Assembly (NCBI RefSeq): GCF_000328685.1
Contig: NC_019974.1
Coordinates: 1,665,001 to 1,729,000, forward strand
DNA: 64,000 bases
Direction of reading: 5' to 3'
Origin: Natronococcus occultus SP4
Lineage (GTDB): Archaea > Halobacteriota > Halobacteria > Halobacteriales > Natrialbaceae
The notes beneath the pieces are model-generated. The model was not told where the DNA came from, searched no databases, and saw nothing but the letters and a program-made list of their open reading frames with translations. Of the stretch, positions 44,960 to 52,785 are shown piece after piece. Made by a program: the position numbers and the translations under genes. Numbering within the stretch: the stretch's first letter is position 1; each line of letters opens with the position of its first letter.

Positions 44960-46678
44960 CTACTCAGACAGCGAGAAGACCGCCAGACGGGTGTCACGGC
45001 CGCCGGCGCCGCGCCGGAGCCAGCCGCTGCCGCCGACCTGGATCGCGACGTACTGCTTCTCGGTCTCGGGGTCGTACCAGCTCATCGGGCTGCCGGCGAT
45101 CGACGCCTCGCCGAGGTCGTACTCCCAAAGCCGGTCGCCGCTCTCGCCGTCGTAGGCGATGAAGTCGCCGTTCTGGGTGCCGGTGAAGACGACGCCGGTC
45201 TCGGTCGTCACCATGCCGCCCCAGATGTAGGCGTCGCTCTCGATCCAGTCGCGCCAGACCCGCTCGCCCGTTTCGGGGTTGATCGCGACGATGGCGCTGA
45301 TCTTCCCGTTGTACTCGTCGGGGACGGCTTCGGTCTCGTCCTCTAAGATTCCGCCCCAGTACTTCTTGCCTTCCTCGTACTCCTCGAAGCGCCACCAGGC
45401 TTCCTGGGGCGAGTTGTTCATCTTCGTGTACATGAGTCCGGTTTCGGGGTTGTAGGCTGGCGGCTGCCAGTCGTTGCCCCCCATCGCGCCGGGCATGAAC
45501 GGCATCCGGCGTCCCTCGTCGATGTGCGGGATCATCCGGTACATGTTCAGCTGCTGGACGCCGGGCTCGCTGCGCTCGATGAGCTCGCCTGTCTCGGTGT
45601 CCATCGTGTAGAGCCAGGCAGTCTTGCCGGCGGAGACGACGACGTCTTTGGTCGTGTTTCGGTGTTCGATCTCCATGTCCCGGATGAGGACTCGCGGCGC
45701 AGCCGAGTCGTAGTCCCAGACGTCGTGAGCGACTTCCTGGTGAGTCCACAGTCGCTCGCCGGTGTCCATATCGAGCGCGAGCGTTCCGCAGCTGTTTCGG
45801 TTCGGTCCCGGTCGGACGGAGCCGTCGAAGTCCGGCCCGGGGTTGCCGATCGGGAGGTAGAGCCGGCGCTGTTCGACGTCGACCGTCGCGTTCATCCAGT
45901 TGGTTGCACAGGACTGGTTGATGCTGTCGCCGACCCACTCGGTCTCGGGTGAGGTCCAAGTGTGCCACAGCTCGTCGCCGGTTTCGGCGTCCAGCGCCTT
46001 GTGGAACCCGCGAACGCCGTACTCGCCGCCCGCGCTGCCGGTGAAGATCATCCCGTCGTACGCGATCGGCGCCCAGGTCGCCGAGTACCCTTCCTCGTGG
46101 TCCGCCGTCGAGGTGTGCCAGACTTCCTCGCCGGTGTACCGGTCGAGCGCGACGACCCCGGAGTCCAACGTCGTCATAAAGACCTTGTCGCCGTAGGCAG
46201 CGACGCCGCGGTTGTTGTCGTCACAACAGAGAACGACGTCCGAGGGCACGGCATACGTATAGCTCCAGAGGATATCGCCCTCGCGAGCGTCGATGGCCTT
46301 GACGTGGTTCGGCCCGTTGGACTGATACATGATCGGCGGGTCGCCCGGAACGATCAGCGGCGTCCCCTCCATGCTCGAGCCGGCACCGACGTCGAGGATG
46401 TACTCGACCTCGAGGTCGGCGACGTTGTCGGGCGTGATGACGTCGGCGGTCGTACGACGGTGTTGTTCGTAGTTCCCGCCGTAGGTGAGCCAGGCCTCCG
46501 GATTATCGCCGGACTCCTGGATCATCTCGTTGGTGACGTCGAACTCCTCGATCCGATCGACGTCGTGTTGGTGCGTGACCGATTTGTCGGGCGATCCCAG
46601 TACGCGGAACCCCTGGTCAGTCTCTCTAACAACCGTATCCTTTGCGGCCTGTACGGCCCTGTCTTCTTCGAGTGACAT
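44960..46678 (-). CDS. PQQ-type (quinoprotein) alcohol dehydrogenase, no signal peptide
   Basis: A 572-residue eight-bladed propeller with repeated tryptophan-docking motifs (for example GEEVWHT, GDELWHT, GERLWTH, GDRLWEY). The vicinal cysteines that form the PQQ-sandwiching disulfide ring are C151-C152. The metal and active-site residues are E219 (GGEYGVRG), N279 (GNPGPDFDG) and D322. D324 two residues on (WDYD) is the extra aspartate associated with lanthanide-using XoxF/ExaF enzymes. There is no haem domain. There is also no signal peptide, and only six bases separate it from the upstream gene, so no hidden one. Family members oxidise alcohols or similar substrates, normally outside the membrane; here it should stay in the cytoplasm unless exported by a partner. 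Confidence 0.85.
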   Translation of the reverse strand: MSLEEDRAVQAAKDTVVRETDQGFRVLGSPDKSVTHQHDVDRIEEFDVTNEMIQESGDNPEAWLTYGGNYEQHRRTTADVITPDNVADLEVEYILDVGAGSSMEGTPLIVPGDPPIMYQSNGPNHVKAIDAREGDILWSYTYAVPSDVVLCCDDNNRGVAAYGDKVFMTTLDSGVVALDRYTGEEVWHTSTADHEEGYSATWAPIAYDGMIFTGSAGGEYGVRGFHKALDAETGDELWHTWTSPETEWVGDSINQSCATNWMNATVDVEQRRLYLPIGNPGPDFDGSVRPGPNRNSCGTLALDMDTGERLWTHQEVAHDVWDYDSAAPRVLIRDMEIEHRNTTKDVVVSAGKTAWLYTMDTETGELIERSEPGVQQLNMYRMIPHIDEGRRMPFMPGAMGGNDWQPPAYNPETGLMYTKMNNSPQEAWWRFEEYEEGKKYWGGILEDETEAVPDEYNGKISAIVAINPETGERVWRDWIESDAYIWGGMVTTETGVVFTGTQNGDFIAYDGESGDRLWEYDLGEASIAGSPMSWYDPETEKQYVAIQVGGSGWLRRGAGGRDTRLAVFSLSE

Positions 46679-46684
46679 GTATGA

Positions 46685-47587
46685 TTACCTCGCTTCTGAT
46701 GGTGCGCGCATCTCTTCAGTGATCCAGAACACGTTCTTGCAGATCTCTTCCTGGTTGACGATCGTGATCGCTGCTCCGGCCGTGATTGCGGCGGTGAGCT
46801 GCGAGTCGGTCAGCCCCTCCTCGCGACCGATCTCGAGGGCTGCCTGCGCCAGCAGGTAGAACCCGCCCAGCAGCGCCTTGACGTCCCAGGAGGCGTCGTC
46901 GAGTATCTCGTCGGTGACGAGGACGCGGTTCTGCCAGAGGTGGACGTCCAGCGAGTCGATCCACAACAGTGTGCCGCCCGCGGCCCGCTGGTGGAGCGGC
47001 GGGACGTGTTCGACGCCGAACTCGACGTCGGCGGGAATCTCCTTCGTCGGAACCCACCGGGCGAGCCGATCGTTGTTGTTCGTGACGTCCATGACGAGCG
47101 CGATCCGCTCCTGCTCGTCGAATCCGAGCGCCTCGAGTTCGGCCGTCAGCTCGTCCGAGCCAATCAGTTCGTGGGCCGTCCCCTCGATGTGTTCGGGCGT
47201 GAACCGCGGCAGGTTCGCCTCCAGGCTCTCGAAGAAATCGATCTCGAGGAGGTGTTCGTAGATCTCCCAGCCGGGATCGGCGAGCTCGCGGTACAGCGAC
47301 TCCGGTTCGCGATCGCCTTCCGGGATCCCCCGTTCTCGAACTTCCGGAAGGCGCTCGAACTGGTCCGAGAGCTCCTCGAGCTGTTCGTCGAGTAACTCAG
47401 TGTCTACCTTTCCGGAGAGATCGCTCCGGATCGCCTCACCCATCGAGGCGAACTCGGGGTCTTCCTCCCGCTTTACTTCCTCCCGGAGCCGTTCGATGGT
47501 CAGCCGGTCGCCATCCACAACCTGCTCGACGTCGAACGTTCGGGCGAGTTGCCGTTGTGCCTCGTCGGTGATCTGTGCCGTCGTCAT
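46685..47587 (-). CDS. Unrecognised 300-residue protein paired with the quinoprotein
   Basis: I do not recognise this family. It is acidic, 300 residues, with no signal peptide and no convincing membrane helix. Residues 1-90 are helical and charged. Residues 150-215 contain RIALVMDVTNNNDRLARW and VPPLHQRAAGGTLLWIDSLDVHLWQNRV (partly cited), which look like an enzyme or cofactor-contact core. Near the end are ITAGAAITIVNQEEICKNVFW and two further helices. It is the first gene after the promoter at about 47665, with the dehydrogenase 6 bases downstream, so it is probably a partner subunit, chaperone or cofactor-related protein. This is inference from context. Confidence 0.7.
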   Translation of the reverse strand: MTTAQITDEAQRQLARTFDVEQVVDGDRLTIERLREEVKREEDPEFASMGEAIRSDLSGKVDTELLDEQLEELSDQFERLPEVRERGIPEGDREPESLYRELADPGWEIYEHLLEIDFFESLEANLPRFTPEHIEGTAHELIGSDELTAELEALGFDEQERIALVMDVTNNNDRLARWVPTKEIPADVEFGVEHVPPLHQRAAGGTLLWIDSLDVHLWQNRVLVTDEILDDASWDVKALLGGFYLLAQAALEIGREEGLTDSQLTAAITAGAAITIVNQEEICKNVFWITEEMRAPSEAR

Positions 47588-47644: not shown

Positions 47645-47661
47645 GTGTAGCCAACCTACAC
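47645..47661. promoter_or_regulatory. Palindrome at the quinoprotein operon start (operator candidate)
   Basis: GTGTAG-CCAAC-CTACAC has perfect 6-base arms and a 5-base spacer. It sits about 25 bases downstream of the AT-rich TATA tract on the minus strand, at the expected transcription start, where a repressor would block RNA polymerase. Confidence 0.5.
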
Positions 47662-47695: not shown

Positions 47696-47968
47696 ACGGG
47701 TGGAATTATGTGTCTTGGACTGTCGCTGTCGTCTTTTCGATAACACAGCTGGTTTCGATACCGTTACCCTCCTCGCTCCTGTCCCGTGGAACCCTTCGGC
47801 CATGATAGAAATCCGCCATTACCGGGCCGGCGCCAGCGTTCGAACGGGAGCCGGGACAGATGCGGACTCGGGATCGCTACCGATGCGGTCAGCATCTACT
47901 TAAACGTTAACCCAAATGATTTATTAGCTCCTTCGTCGACAGTCGGATACGGTAAGAGTGTGAATAAC

Positions 47969-49036
47969 ATGCAAAATACGCGACGCGGCGTCCTCGCGCT
48001 CGGCGGCGGGCTCGTCCTCTCAGGGTGTGCCGGCCGGCTCGGCGGGAGCGAGGACGGGGGGACGTCCTCGAACGACGGGGTCGACGTGGAGTCGGTCTCG
48101 CTGTTGTTGAACTGGAACCTGGGCGGTCTCCACGCGCCCTACGTCGCCGCCCGGGAGGAAGGGTTCTACGCGGACGAGGGGTTCGCCGACATCGAGATCG
48201 AGAGCGGGGACGGTTCGGACTTCGCGGCGAACCAGGCCGGGCTCGGCAACACGGAGTTCGCCGTCTCCAGCGGCGACCAGATCCTGACGGTCAACAGCAA
48301 CGAGCTGTCGCCCCGCGCGGTCGGGATCGTCATGCAGCGGAACCCGAACGTCGTCTTCGCCGACCGCGAGGAGTTCGGGGAGCTCACCGATCCGGAACAG
48401 CTCGAGGACGTGACGGTCGGGAGCGGTCCGGGAATGGTTCGAACGATGACAGAGGCGTATCTCGATCACCACGGGCTCCTCGACACCGTCGAGTACGTCG
48501 ATGCCGGCTTCGACACCGTCCAGCAGCTGCTGGCCGGCGAAATCGACGTCGCCGGCGGCGTCTTCAGCGACGTCGTCGACGCGCGCCACCAGGGCAGGGA
48601 GATCGACGTCCTCGAGACCGACGAGGCCGTCGCCTCCTACGGCCACCTGATCGCGACCGACGAGTCGTTCGCCGAGGACCACCCCGAGACCGTCGAGGCG
48701 TTCCTCCGGGCGACCGCCAGAGGAGCCGTCTGGGCGGCTCGAAACCCCGACGCGGCGATCGATCACCTCGTCGACGTCCAGCCCGAACTCGCTGAGACCC
48801 GGGAGAACCAGTACGACAAGTGGGAACAGATGTACACCGAGTACATGCTCTCGGAGACGGTCGAGCGCGAGGGATGGGGAGCGAGCGCACCCGACCCCTG
48901 GCGGGAAACCCACGAGGTGCTGGCCGACGGCGACGTCCTCGAGAACGAGGTCGATCCGGACGCCGTCTGGACCAACGACTACCTCGACGCCGAGGACGAA
49001 TACGTCTCGGCATTCGCCGATCGAATCGATGGCTAA
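47969..49036 (+). CDS. NMT1/SsuA-type ABC substrate-binding lipoprotein
   Basis: A 355-residue binding protein. A Tat signal (NTRRGVLALGGG, RR at 5-6) leads to lipobox Cys20 (LSGCAG). The mature domain belongs to the NMT1/THI5-SsuA family: LLLNWNLGGLHAPYVAAREEGFYADEG (partly cited) and SVSSGDQIL-like segments, here AVSSGDQIL. These proteins carry thiamine precursors, sulfonates, nitrate or similar small molecules; I cannot choose. The ATG at 47969 begins the Tat signal. The permease follows 39 bases later. Confidence 0.88.
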   Translation: MQNTRRGVLALGGGLVLSGCAGRLGGSEDGGTSSNDGVDVESVSLLLNWNLGGLHAPYVAAREEGFYADEGFADIEIESGDGSDFAANQAGLGNTEFAVSSGDQILTVNSNELSPRAVGIVMQRNPNVVFADREEFGELTDPEQLEDVTVGSGPGMVRTMTEAYLDHHGLLDTVEYVDAGFDTVQQLLAGEIDVAGGVFSDVVDARHQGREIDVLETDEAVASYGHLIATDESFAEDHPETVEAFLRATARGAVWAARNPDAAIDHLVDVQPELAETRENQYDKWEQMYTEYMLSETVEREGWGASAPDPWRETHEVLADGDVLENEVDPDAVWTNDYLDAEDEYVSAFADRIDG

Positions 49037-49075: not shown

Positions 49076-49906
49076 ATGATCGACGGACGAACCGAGCGAC
49101 GCGACGCTCGTCGGCTCGAGGACGTCCCGGAGCGCCGAGGTGGACTCGCAGCCGGACGGCGACTCGCCCGGAAAGCGGGTGCGCGGCTCCTCCCACCGGC
49201 GGTCGTCCTCGCGGCGCTGCTCGCCGCGTGGCACGTGGTCGTCGTCCACTACGACGTGCCTGCAGTCGTGCTCCCGTCTCCAATCGAGGTCGGAGCGACG
49301 CTCGCCGAGACGTATCCGACGCTGCTTTCCGACGCCGCCGTCACGGCGGCGACCGCCGGGATCGGGCTGTTCGCGGGTACCGTCGTCGGCGCCGGACTCG
49401 CCTTCGCGATGCTCGGCTCGCGGCGGGCCGCGAGTACGCTCCTGCCGTACGTCGTCGCGCTCCGGATCGCGCCGGTGATCGCGATCGCGCCGCTGCTGTT
49501 TCTCTGGTTCGGCCGCGGGATCCCCGCCCGCTCGCTGGTTGTCACGACGCTGACGGTGTTCCCGATCACGATCGCGACCCTCGACGGCCTCCGTGGCACT
49601 CCCGAGTCGTACCTCGATCTGGCCCGGACCGTCGACGCCTCCCCGACCGCGGCGTTCGTCCGCGTTCGGGTTCCCGCAGCCGCACCGAGCGTTTTCGCTG
49701 GGCTCAAGATCGCCGCGACGCTTTCGGTCATCGGCGCGATCGTCGCCGAGTTCGTTACGCTCAACGCCGGACTGGGCTACCGGGTGTTCGAGACGGCGGC
49801 CTATCTCCGGACGGCCGAGACGTACGCCGCCCTCGTCGTCCTCTCGACGCTCGGTATCGCCTTCTACCTCGTCCCGGTCGGCCTCGAGCGCGCGCTCTGG
49901 CACTGA
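49076..49906 (+). CDS. SsuC/ThiX-type ABC permease 1
   Basis: A 276-residue permease of the binding-protein-dependent class with six helices; about 40 hydrophilic residues precede the first. The EAA coupling loop reads YLDLARTVDASPTAAFVRVRVPAA (partly cited), and SVFAGLKIAATLSVIGAIVAEF follows as in SsuC/TauC. It is convergent with permease 2; the two stops are one base apart. Confidence 0.88.
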   Translation: MIDGRTERRDARRLEDVPERRGGLAAGRRLARKAGARLLPPAVVLAALLAAWHVVVVHYDVPAVVLPSPIEVGATLAETYPTLLSDAAVTAATAGIGLFAGTVVGAGLAFAMLGSRRAASTLLPYVVALRIAPVIAIAPLLFLWFGRGIPARSLVVTTLTVFPITIATLDGLRGTPESYLDLARTVDASPTAAFVRVRVPAAAPSVFAGLKIAATLSVIGAIVAEFVTLNAGLGYRVFETAAYLRTAETYAALVVLSTLGIAFYLVPVGLERALWH

Positions 49907-49907
49907 T

Positions 49908-50679
49908 TCAGGCGACGTCCTCGAGCCCGAGGCGGGCGTGGACACGCCGCTGGACGAGGACGACCAGCCCGTACAGCGCCAGCCCGACGACCAGCAGAAC
50001 GGCGAGTGCCGCGAGCATGACGTCGGGCCGAACGTTCTCGGATCCCATTAAGATTAGAAACCCCAGACCGCTGTCGGCGACGACCCACTCCGCGACGACG
50101 GCGCCGACGACCGCGAGCGTGACCGACTGTTTCAGCCCGGCGAAGACGTCGGGAATCGCGTAGGGGACGTCGACGTACACCAGCCGCGCTATCGGGCCGG
50201 CTCGAACCGACCGCAGCAGGTCGTGGTGGGTCGACGGCGTGCGATCGAGCCCGGCGGCGGTGTTCAACACGAGCGGGAAGAACGTGATGAGCGCGACGAA
50301 GACGATCGCTGTCGCCGTTCCGGTCCCCAGGTAGATGAGCAACAGCGGCGCGATCGCGAGCTTCGGCAGGACCCGGACGGTCACGAGGTAGGGGTAGACG
50401 GCTCGCCGGAACCAGGGGACGGAGGCGACGAAGACCGCGAGGACGATCCCCGCGGCGATCCCGATCGCGCCGCCGTAGACGACCTTCTCGAGAGTGTGGA
50501 GGGCGTTGACCAGATACAGCTCCGGGTTCCCCGCCAGCCGGGCGAGGACGGCGTCCGGCGTCGGGAGGAGAAACGACGGGATCTCGGCGAGGACGGCGAG
50601 CCCCCACCAGAGCGCGACGCCGACACAGAGCGCGGCCGCCGGGTAGGCGACGTCTCCGCCCGCGAGCCGGAGGGTGCGT

Positions 50680-50687
<8 letters not shown>
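49908..50687 (-). CDS. SsuC/ThiX-type ABC permease 2
   Basis: A 259-residue permease of the same class as its convergent neighbour but clearly different in sequence. Coupling loop: HHDLLRSVRAGPIARLVYVDVPYAIPDVFAGLK (partly cited), followed by AVVGAVVAEWVVADSGLGF. The ATG at 50687 overlaps the ATPase gene by 8 bases, so the two are co-translated. Confidence 0.88.
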
Positions 50688-51419
<732 letters not shown>

Positions 51420-51423
<4 letters not shown>

Positions 51424-52691
51424 GGGTCGGTCGCGAGCAACTCACCCTGTTCGAGCGCCGTCCGCAGCCGGTTCCAGGTTTGCTCGCGCTGCCAGCCCCA
51501 GCCCCGTTCGCGGCTATCGTCGCTATGGCCGAACTCCTCGACCGCTCGTTCGAACGTCTCCCGGACGCGATCGGGCTCGTCGTCCCCTCGGTCGGCGATC
51601 CGTTCCGCGGCTCGATCGGCGTCGTCAGTCGCCTCGATCCATCCGCCGACGGTGCCCGCCAGAAACGACGCGAGCGCCGACCGTCGCTCCCGTAACGCCG
51701 ACTCCCGGGCGACGATCGTCGGGCCGTAGATCGGGAAATGGTCGGTGGGAAACAGCGTATCGACGGTCTCACCCTGTCGCTCGAGCTGTCGCGGATCGGT
51801 GATCGACCCGGTGACGACGTCGGCCTCGCCGGACAAAAGCGCCGCCCGCTCCTCACCGGCCGTCGCCGTGATCTCCAGGTCATCCCCGAGGGCGGCCTGG
51901 GAGACGAACAGGCGACCGAGGACGCCCGTTTCGGAACGGGCGGGCATCCCGATCCGTCGCCCCCGGAGCTGGTCGACGCTGCGAAGCTCCGTCCCGAAGG
52001 CCTCGCGGGTGGAGTACAACACCGCCATCGCGCGCTGGTAGAGGACTGCGATCGGAACGACGGGAACCCCCGCCGCCCTGGCCCGGAGCACGGTCGCGGC
52101 CCCGGCGACCCCGACGTCGGCGTCCCCGGCGTCGACCGCGTCGACGGCGCGTCGGGACCCCGCGCGGTGGTCGAGCTCGACCTCGATCCCGTACTCGTCG
52201 TACCAGCCCGTCTCGACGGCCGCGTAGAAGGGAACGTGGAGCCCGTTCGGGTGCCAGTTCAACGCGACCGCGAGCTCCGACCCGGATCGTTCGTCTCCCG
52301 TCGCGGAGTCGGTATCCGAGCAGCGCCCGAAGATCGCCTCCGCTCGCTCGAGCAACGTCTCCGCGTGGCAGTCGTAGACGCGACGACGACTCGTGTCGAG
52401 GTCCGTCGCCGGCGTCCACGCCGACGGAGGCCGTCCCGTCGCGTCGGTGTCGACGGTGGAGCGTTCGACCAGCTCGTCGTCTTCGAGCCGGGCGACCGCG
52501 TCGCTGATCGGCGATCGACTCAGCTCGGTTCCGACCTGCAGCTGGATCGTTCTCGCGGGATCGTCCTCACGCTCGGCCCGCAACAGCAGGTACGCGAGGA
52601 CTCGCGCGGGCGTCCGCCCCAGCCCGACGGCGAGGTCGTCGACGACTGCTTCGTCCTCGTCGTCGAGCACCCAGAACGTTCGCGAGCGCAT
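51420..52691 (-). CDS. Fused helix-turn-helix and NMT1/SsuA-like binding-protein regulator
   Basis: 423 residues. Residues 1-95 form a winged helix (VVDDLAVGLGRTPARVLAYLL, then RSPISDAVARLEDDELV). Then a linker and, from about 140, a solute-binding domain starting LNWHPNGLHVPFYAAVETGWYDEYG (partly cited). This is the same motif as in the cluster's lipoprotein (LNWNLGGLHAPYVAAREEGFY). No signal peptide, so it is cytoplasmic. The simplest reading is a one-component regulator that senses the imported ligand with a copy of its carrier. First gene of the leftward operon regulator-ATPase-permease. Confidence 0.82.
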
Positions 52692-52785
52692 TCGTCGTAA
52701 CAGATCATGTGGGACCGCATAAGGATACCCCCGGTTTCGGCGACTGCCGGGAGCGACGGATCCTGTCGGTCGGCGCGTCTCGTCG

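Follow-up and report, generated by a model that had tools for sequence, protein, structure and literature searches.

A recurrent haloarchaeal regulator family joining a winged helix-turn-helix to an importer-type binding domain, inherited with a PQQ-type dehydrogenase

Introduction

In the 64,000-nt stretch of the Natronococcus occultus SP4 genome analysed here (NC_019974.1, positions 1,665,001 to 1,729,000; hereafter the window), a gene coding for a putative transcriptional regulator, REG, overlaps the ATPase gene of an ATP-binding cassette (ABC) importer, close to the gene of an alcohol dehydrogenase of the pyrroloquinoline quinone type (PQQ-ADH). REG resembles the solute-binding lipoprotein of that importer, LIP, which raises the question of why a regulator carries a transporter-type binding domain, and for which compound. 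We propose that REG is probably an internal sensor for the importer/PQQ-type dehydrogenase system.

Results

REG is encoded on the minus strand by an open reading frame (ORF) of 423 codons running from an ATG at position 52691 to a stop at 51420-51422, the extent given in the initial annotation, which had recognised within it both a helix-turn-helix (HTH) and an ABC binding-protein domain. Both domains proved real. The Pfam profile PF09084 (NMT1) matched residues 152-360 at 108.1 bits, against a cut-off of 20.5, and matched 60 of 60 REG family members; this score above the curated cut-off and a two-lobed NMT1/THI5-like fold place REG within that family. The HTH match to MarR_2 (residues 23-83 of the window REG, 19.2 bits) lies below the Pfam cut-off, and MarR_2 was matched in 16 of the 60 members. 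The first 125 residues matched MreA at E≤0.01 in 50 of 54 members, under the MreA cut-off where shown, and Lrs14 in 24 of 54, while the window REG scored 26.7 bits for MreA and 18.6 bits for Lrs14 against curated cut-offs of 100 and 90. Profile comparison thus describes the N-terminus as a winged HTH (wHTH) that is related to the archaeal MreA/Lrs14 regulators and stands outside the membership of those families; its GRP wing is invariant in the family alignment. In a structure model built from the 60 members (mean predicted local distance difference test score, pLDDT, 91.7), a winged helix (residues 11-94) is followed by a long helix (98-121) that is a probable dimerisation or linker helix, a low-confidence link (124-134) and the binding domain (139-419). 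Neither Pfam nor NCBIfam reported a curated family model specific to this combination of an HTH with a solute-binding protein (SBP) domain.

The claim that REG lacks a signal also held. None is visible in its N-terminus (MRSRTFWVLDDEDEAVVDDL), whereas LIP carries a twin-arginine pair and an LSGC lipobox, and R5, R6, G19 and C20 of LIP are invariant in 33 orthologs. Inspection by eye, with no signal predictor, likewise found neither a signal peptide nor a lipobox in the REG N-termini of 54 loci, which sets REG apart from extracytoplasmic SBPs.

The REG stop codon overlaps the start of the ATPase gene by 4 nt (ATGA, TGA over ATG), as first noted, and this arrangement recurs. Among 59 loci examined for ATPase adjacency, 54 from G-numbered genomes and five from named contigs, a same-strand ATPase adjoins REG in 40, and in 35 of those 40 the overlap is again 4 nt. 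Across the fetched loci the recurrent order is REG-ATPase-permease / permease-lipoprotein. Gene order and co-inheritance therefore tie this cytosolic one-component regulator, with its importer-type domain, to the importer. At two loci, L086 and L091 (genomes G190 and G240), REG homologs lie next to an NMT1 importer of another kind, where a lipoprotein and a binding protein without a signal follow each other in tandem.

REG represents a family of HTH-SBP regulators that recurs among haloarchaea. A survey of 391 genomes of the class gave some REG match at E≤1e-10 in 83 of them and a full-length REG in at least 59, counting the matches listed and the loci read. In a phylum sample of 216 genomes, five REG matches were found at E≤1e-40, all in the window genome's own family; named relatives come from Natronococcus, Natronolimnohabitans, Natribaculum and a metagenome-assembled genome of the Natrialbaceae.

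Next to the importer lie PQQ-ADH and its partner GX, a 300-aa protein. Of the 391 class genomes, 69 have GX and 68 have PQQ-ADH. GX is present in 58 of the 59 genomes that have a full-length REG among the matches listed, and in 47 of the 59 the distance between REG and a GX copy is at most 20 kb; eleven genomes have GX and no full-length REG among the matches listed (such genomes are called REG-minus below). For both the REG and the GX counts, both states occur within single genera. GX matched no Pfam family and, above cut-off, no NCBIfam model. Its model is all-helical (pLDDT 90.4), with no PDB match at E≤0.001 and no VIA match at Z≥8, which gives no basis for calling the fold new.

The dehydrogenase is nearest to PedH (6zcv), whose CCDVINRG and HDGWDFD segments align with its CCDDNNRG and HDVWDYD. 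The vicinal cysteine pair has a recognised role in quinoprotein dehydrogenases. Besides this pair, the enzyme has the second aspartate of the D-x-D rule for lanthanide-type enzymes, as formulated in PMC11996626, and is thus predicted to be a lanthanide-type quinoprotein alcohol dehydrogenase. No signal peptide was visible in the PQQ-ADH sequences examined, which is unusual in that lanthanide-type quinoprotein alcohol dehydrogenases are normally exported. Recurrent neighbours of the locus include an aldehyde ferredoxin oxidoreductase and a protein of the glyoxalase superfamily. In other genera, genes near the PQQ-ADH/REG locus code for a cupredoxin of the twin-arginine translocation (TAT) type, a further cupredoxin-like protein and one resembling formate dehydrogenase (both recognised by eye) and an aldehyde:ferredoxin oxidoreductase (Table 1).

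These neighbours bear on the possibility that the importer brings in, and REG senses, a substrate of the dehydrogenase, such as an alcohol or an aromatic compound, rather than its cofactor, so that the ligand would be a catabolic inducer. A dehydrogenase without a visible signal would need its substrate inside the cell, and the recurrence of the aldehyde ferredoxin oxidoreductase and the glyoxalase-superfamily protein, as well as the co-occurrence of three signal-less NMT1 proteins (see below), would suit such a pathway. The nearest SBP structures, however, bind heterocyclic cofactor precursors or anions, and the TAT-type cupredoxins that adjoin the dehydrogenase in other genera hint at extracellular electron transfer; we regard a catabolic inducer as somewhat unlikely.

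As for the supply of PQQ, PqqC was found in 0 of 69 genomes, in a search run without a positive control, and PqqE in 0 of 69 above the equivalog cut-off, PqqE-type matches all lying below it as they did in 14 control genomes. For this reason, these archaea may import PQQ by necessity or make it by unknown genes.

Table 1. Features of the REG locus and of related loci. Positions are those of the window unless a locus is named.
Feature	Position	Strand	Remarks
REG, wHTH and NMT1/THI5-fold solute-binding domain	51420..52691	-	423 aa, no signal
REG residues 1-97, wHTH	52401..52691	-	MreA/Lrs14-like, conserved GRP wing
REG residues 98-121, long helix	52329..52400	-	From the model; residues 124-134 low-confidence
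REG residues 139-419, solute-binding domain	51435..52277	-	From the model and fold comparison; best solved relative ThiY 3ix1
Probable REG core promoter	52718..52732	-	GGGTATCCTTATG region, short leader to ATG
ABC ATPase	50680..51423	-	Start overlaps REG stop (ATGA)
Permease 2	49908..50747	-	Start uncertain; most upstream candidate is the TTG at 50747
Permease 1	49076..49906	+	
LIP, solute-binding lipoprotein	47969..49036	+	NMT1 family, twin-Arg and lipobox
Candidate operator TAAACGTTAACCCAAATGATTTAT	47901..47924	+	Overlaps LIP core promoter
GX	46685..47587	-	300 aa, all-helical, partner of PQQ-ADH
PQQ-ADH	44960..46678	-	CCD..NRG and HDVWDYD motifs, no signal peptide seen
Cupredoxins, formate-dehydrogenase-like protein, aldehyde:ferredoxin oxidoreductase	L053 11240-12751; L077 4740-5393; L051 13923-15350; L057 2697-4835		Near PQQ-ADH/REG loci

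The initial annotation had connected REG with LIP through a shared LNW...GLHxP motif. The motif is indeed present in both proteins (LNWHPNGLHVPFYAA in REG, LNWNLGGLHAPYVAA in LIP), and they are true homologs, as an alignment of 274 columns at 26% identity (75.5 bits, E=2e-19) is not expected by chance. However, variants of LNWxPxGLHxP are also found in ThiY- and THI5-type proteins, which makes the motif a signature of the whole family and no indication of a shared ligand. A third homolog, a signal-less NMT1 protein of 321 aa, is encoded about 540 kb from REG in the window genome. REG is nearer to this cytosolic paralog (128 bits, 30%) than to LIP, while LIP and the paralog are nearer to each other (182 bits, 37%) than either is to REG. 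In an unrooted tree of 63 chosen sequences (28 of the 55 REG sequences, no external outgroup), the REG, LIP and cytosolic groups were each set off by a branch with bootstrap 100, and a long branch separated the REG domains from the LIPs and from the cytosolic paralogs. The proposal that the REG domain is a recent, cluster-specific duplicate of the importer's own carrier therefore had to be abandoned: the trees contain three old clades, with REG separate at 100/100, and REG is nearer to the cytosolic paralog. Given these three groups, the HTH-SBP fusion appears from the sequences to be one old event.

We compared REG and LIP by alignment columns, excluding the cytosolic sequence CYT_L060, whose start is misread (it was also left out of alignment A3, as L099 was of A8). 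Of 43 columns conserved at ≥85% in both proteins, 30 hold the same residue, including LNW, P154, G178, S179, G323 and GWG...W, and 13 hold different ones, including G197/S101, A199/D103, E254/M156, E280/D182 and P324/H226. The likeness to the carrier thus stands in part, and suggests that REG and LIP have a similar binding mode in a partly different pocket. Among REGs, the sensor domain is strongly conserved at, for example, E254, G279, E280, E281, G397, W398 and G399.

Signal-less relatives also occur in a cytosolic operon, in which three NMT1-fold genes stand in tandem (L100 4981-7853; genome C1:1174980-1177852); their products are possibly cytosolic carriers. A cytosolic or LIP-type NMT1 relative was found at E≤1e-40 in all 69 GX genomes.

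Fold comparison placed the REG sensor domain closest to ThiY (3ix1; Z 29.4, root-mean-square deviation 3.2, 281 aligned residues), followed by a thiamin-bound SBP (Z 26.0); Z fell to about 25 for THI5, about 23 for SsuA, 20.8 for PqqT with PQQ and about 20 for the regulatory domains that CmpC/NrtC have in the cytosol. We did not accept this ranking as a guide to the ligand: scores are similar across many NMT1-fold proteins, and their order reflects the family rather than the compound bound. ThiY and THI5, both of PF09084, share fold and family with REG and are its best sequence and structure matches. ThiY is extracytoplasmic, whereas REG has no visible signal. THI5 is an enzyme in which K62 is the pyridoxal phosphate lysine; K62 and H66, the latter named in the title of structure 4esw, align with A196 and T200 of REG, which thus lacks both residues of a THI5-type hydroxymethylpyrimidine phosphate (HMP-P) synthase. 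With ThiY and the thiamin-bound SBP as best sequence and fold relatives, the importer might, like ThiY, take up thiamin or a thiamine-type pyrimidine, which would make REG a vitamin sensor. The neighbouring genes inspected included no recognised thiamine gene, however, and the near-constant companions of REG are PQQ-ADH and GX, which leaves a vitamin sensor quite improbable.

In its layout REG resembles SgrR of E. coli, a cytosolic protein in which a winged HTH at the N-terminus likewise precedes an ABC SBP domain at the C-terminus. The binding domain of SgrR is SBP_bac_5 and its regulon is another, whereas that of REG is NMT1/THI5; Pfam gave no SBP_bac_5 match in REG up to E=1. LysR-type regulators share the layout of a wHTH and a two-lobed, periplasmic-binding-protein-like effector domain, whereas the REG sensor belongs to the NMT1 SBP family, and Pfam matched neither the LysR HTH nor the LysR substrate domain in REG. 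Cyanobacterial NrtC and CmpC carry, according to PMC11349869, cytosolic SBP domains; these C-terminal regulatory domains are fused to the ATPase, whereas in REG the SBP-like domain is fused to a wHTH and the ATPase is a separate, overlapping gene. REG would work like SgrR and NrtC/CmpC but is a member of neither, since binding family and fusion partner differ. PqqT of Methylobacterium/Methylorubrum extorquens, reported in PMC12124388 and PMC12828617 to be an SBP-fold protein that binds PQQ with a dissociation constant of 50 nM, shares the fold of the REG sensor; PqqT is periplasmic and has no HTH, whereas REG is HTH-fused.

An unsupervised palindrome search of 56 upstream regions, from 20 of the 54 fetched G-genome loci and from the window, returned a best word scoring 134.6 at width 20, compared to 43-48 in four shuffled sets. 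This word is carried by 16 of 18 LIP and 8 of 8 cytosolic-operon regions, compared to 0 of 21 REG and 1 of 9 GX regions. The same candidate operator as in front of LIP (Table 1) lies upstream of the cytosolic SBP operon (genome C1:1174929-1174952). A position weight matrix (PWM) was trained on 24 LIP promoters, 13 near-duplicates having been excluded, and applied to 41 held-out regions from 40 genomes (one entering twice) that lie upstream of the cytosolic SBP operon. Of these, 40 reached the threshold score of ≥7, as did 1 of 55 REG regions and 0 of 41 GX regions. The threshold was also reached in 37 of 37 LIP genes near REG (24 of them the training set) and in 0 of 5 LIP copies away from REG. 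The half of the motif outside the core promoter fell in the top 5% of its own sequence in 34 of 41 cytosolic-operon, 2 of 55 REG and 0 of 41 GX regions. Allowing at most one mismatch, the pattern occurs in the 4.3-Mb genome only at the LIP and cytosolic-operon promoters; one of its three matches is the same palindrome on the other strand, a reversed control pattern matched twice, and only the rarity of the pattern is informative, because it was drawn from such sites. From its placement, the element likely marks a shared regulon of LIP and the cytosolic operon. REG promoters yielded no convincing shared operator. The GX promoter region contains an inverted repeat, GTGTAG-CCAAC-CTACAC (window 47645-47661), that is partly conserved in Natronococcus-like loci only and not beyond.

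Discussion

REG combines two domains without a visible signal, is coupled to the importer ATPase in an operon, and is co-inherited with the importer, GX and the PQQ-type dehydrogenase. We consider it fairly probable that it is a ligand-gated, cytosolic one-component transcription regulator of the importer/PQQ-dehydrogenase system, acting on the importer genes. For ligand binding, dimerisation, the DNA site and the direction of regulation, we infer the following. The NMT1/THI5-fold domain would close on a small molecule of the system, most likely what the importer brings in; closure would be passed on through helix 98-121 and shift the geometry of a dimeric winged helix, which would adjust transcription of the importer genes. 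Feedback repression, with the ligand as co-repressor, is the likeliest sign, because the candidate site overlaps the TATA region of LIP. The circuit so inferred keeps the earlier proposal that REG would sense the imported compound.

Several observations weigh against this reading. No adjacent ATPase of the importer type was found in 19 of the 59 REG loci, a LIP match at ≥45% is missing in 17 of the 59 REG genomes, and the genome counts are phylogenetically non-independent. Several of the 13 differing columns probably lie in pocket-lining loops, so that REG and LIP need not share a ligand. The LIP-type inverted repeat is absent from REG's own promoter (1 of 55 reach threshold), and part of the PWM motif is generic BRE/TATA (transcription factor B recognition element and TATA box). 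In REG-minus genomes, 9 of 9 cytosolic-operon regions score ≥7, with a median of 10.0 compared to 10.55 for the 32 others; since these regions keep the inverted repeat, another factor may bind it. As regards PQQ, PqqT gave no sequence match to REG at E≤0.01 and has a lower fold score than ThiY, THI5 and SsuA, and the PqqC search lacked its control.

Some of these points would suit a REG that is not a ligand-responsive regulator of the importer at all, its SBP domain being a scaffold or protein-interaction module, or REG acting elsewhere, with the LIP element belonging to another regulator. The element kept without REG, its absence from REG and GX promoters, and the REG loci with no importer nearby all speak for this view, and the regulator reading the shared element may indeed be other than REG. 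Such a scaffold, however, accords poorly with the strong conservation of sensor-domain residues and with the element's presence at every LIP near REG and at none of the copies away from it, and we judge it unlikely. A ligand-gated regulator of the importer genes thus remains our preferred reading.

If REG is such a regulator, the foremost single candidate for its ligand is PQQ, either free or as a metal complex, because the PQQ-type dehydrogenase is a near-constant companion and no PqqC or PqqE equivalog was found; the choice is tentative and falls short of an even chance. A bolder and rather unlikely extension makes REG a PQQ (or lanthanide-PQQ) sensor in haloarchaea unable to make PQQ. One fold would then serve at three places, outside the cell in LIP, free in the cytosol in the three tandem proteins and on DNA in REG, with the shared promoter element tying the outer and cytosolic sets together; the three cytosolic proteins would perhaps be cofactor carriers for a cytosolic quinoprotein.

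In the literature listings searched, from which subscription papers were mostly absent, neither the search for a haloarchaeal NMT1-HTH regulator nor that for haloarchaeal PQQ or lanthanide biology showed a paper that we recognised as dealing with this family, which is no proof of novelty. Should the proposal be true, archaea would have a dedicated cofactor sensor that uses the importer's own fold to read its ligand, and organisms that bear quinoproteins without recognised PQQ synthesis genes would have a candidate uptake route for PQQ. The acquisition of PQQ by haloarchaea and its regulation become open to experiment, through genes and a promoter site that can be named. Whatever its ligand, REG represents a recurrent haloarchaeal HTH-SBP family for which Pfam and NCBIfam reported no curated model of its own.
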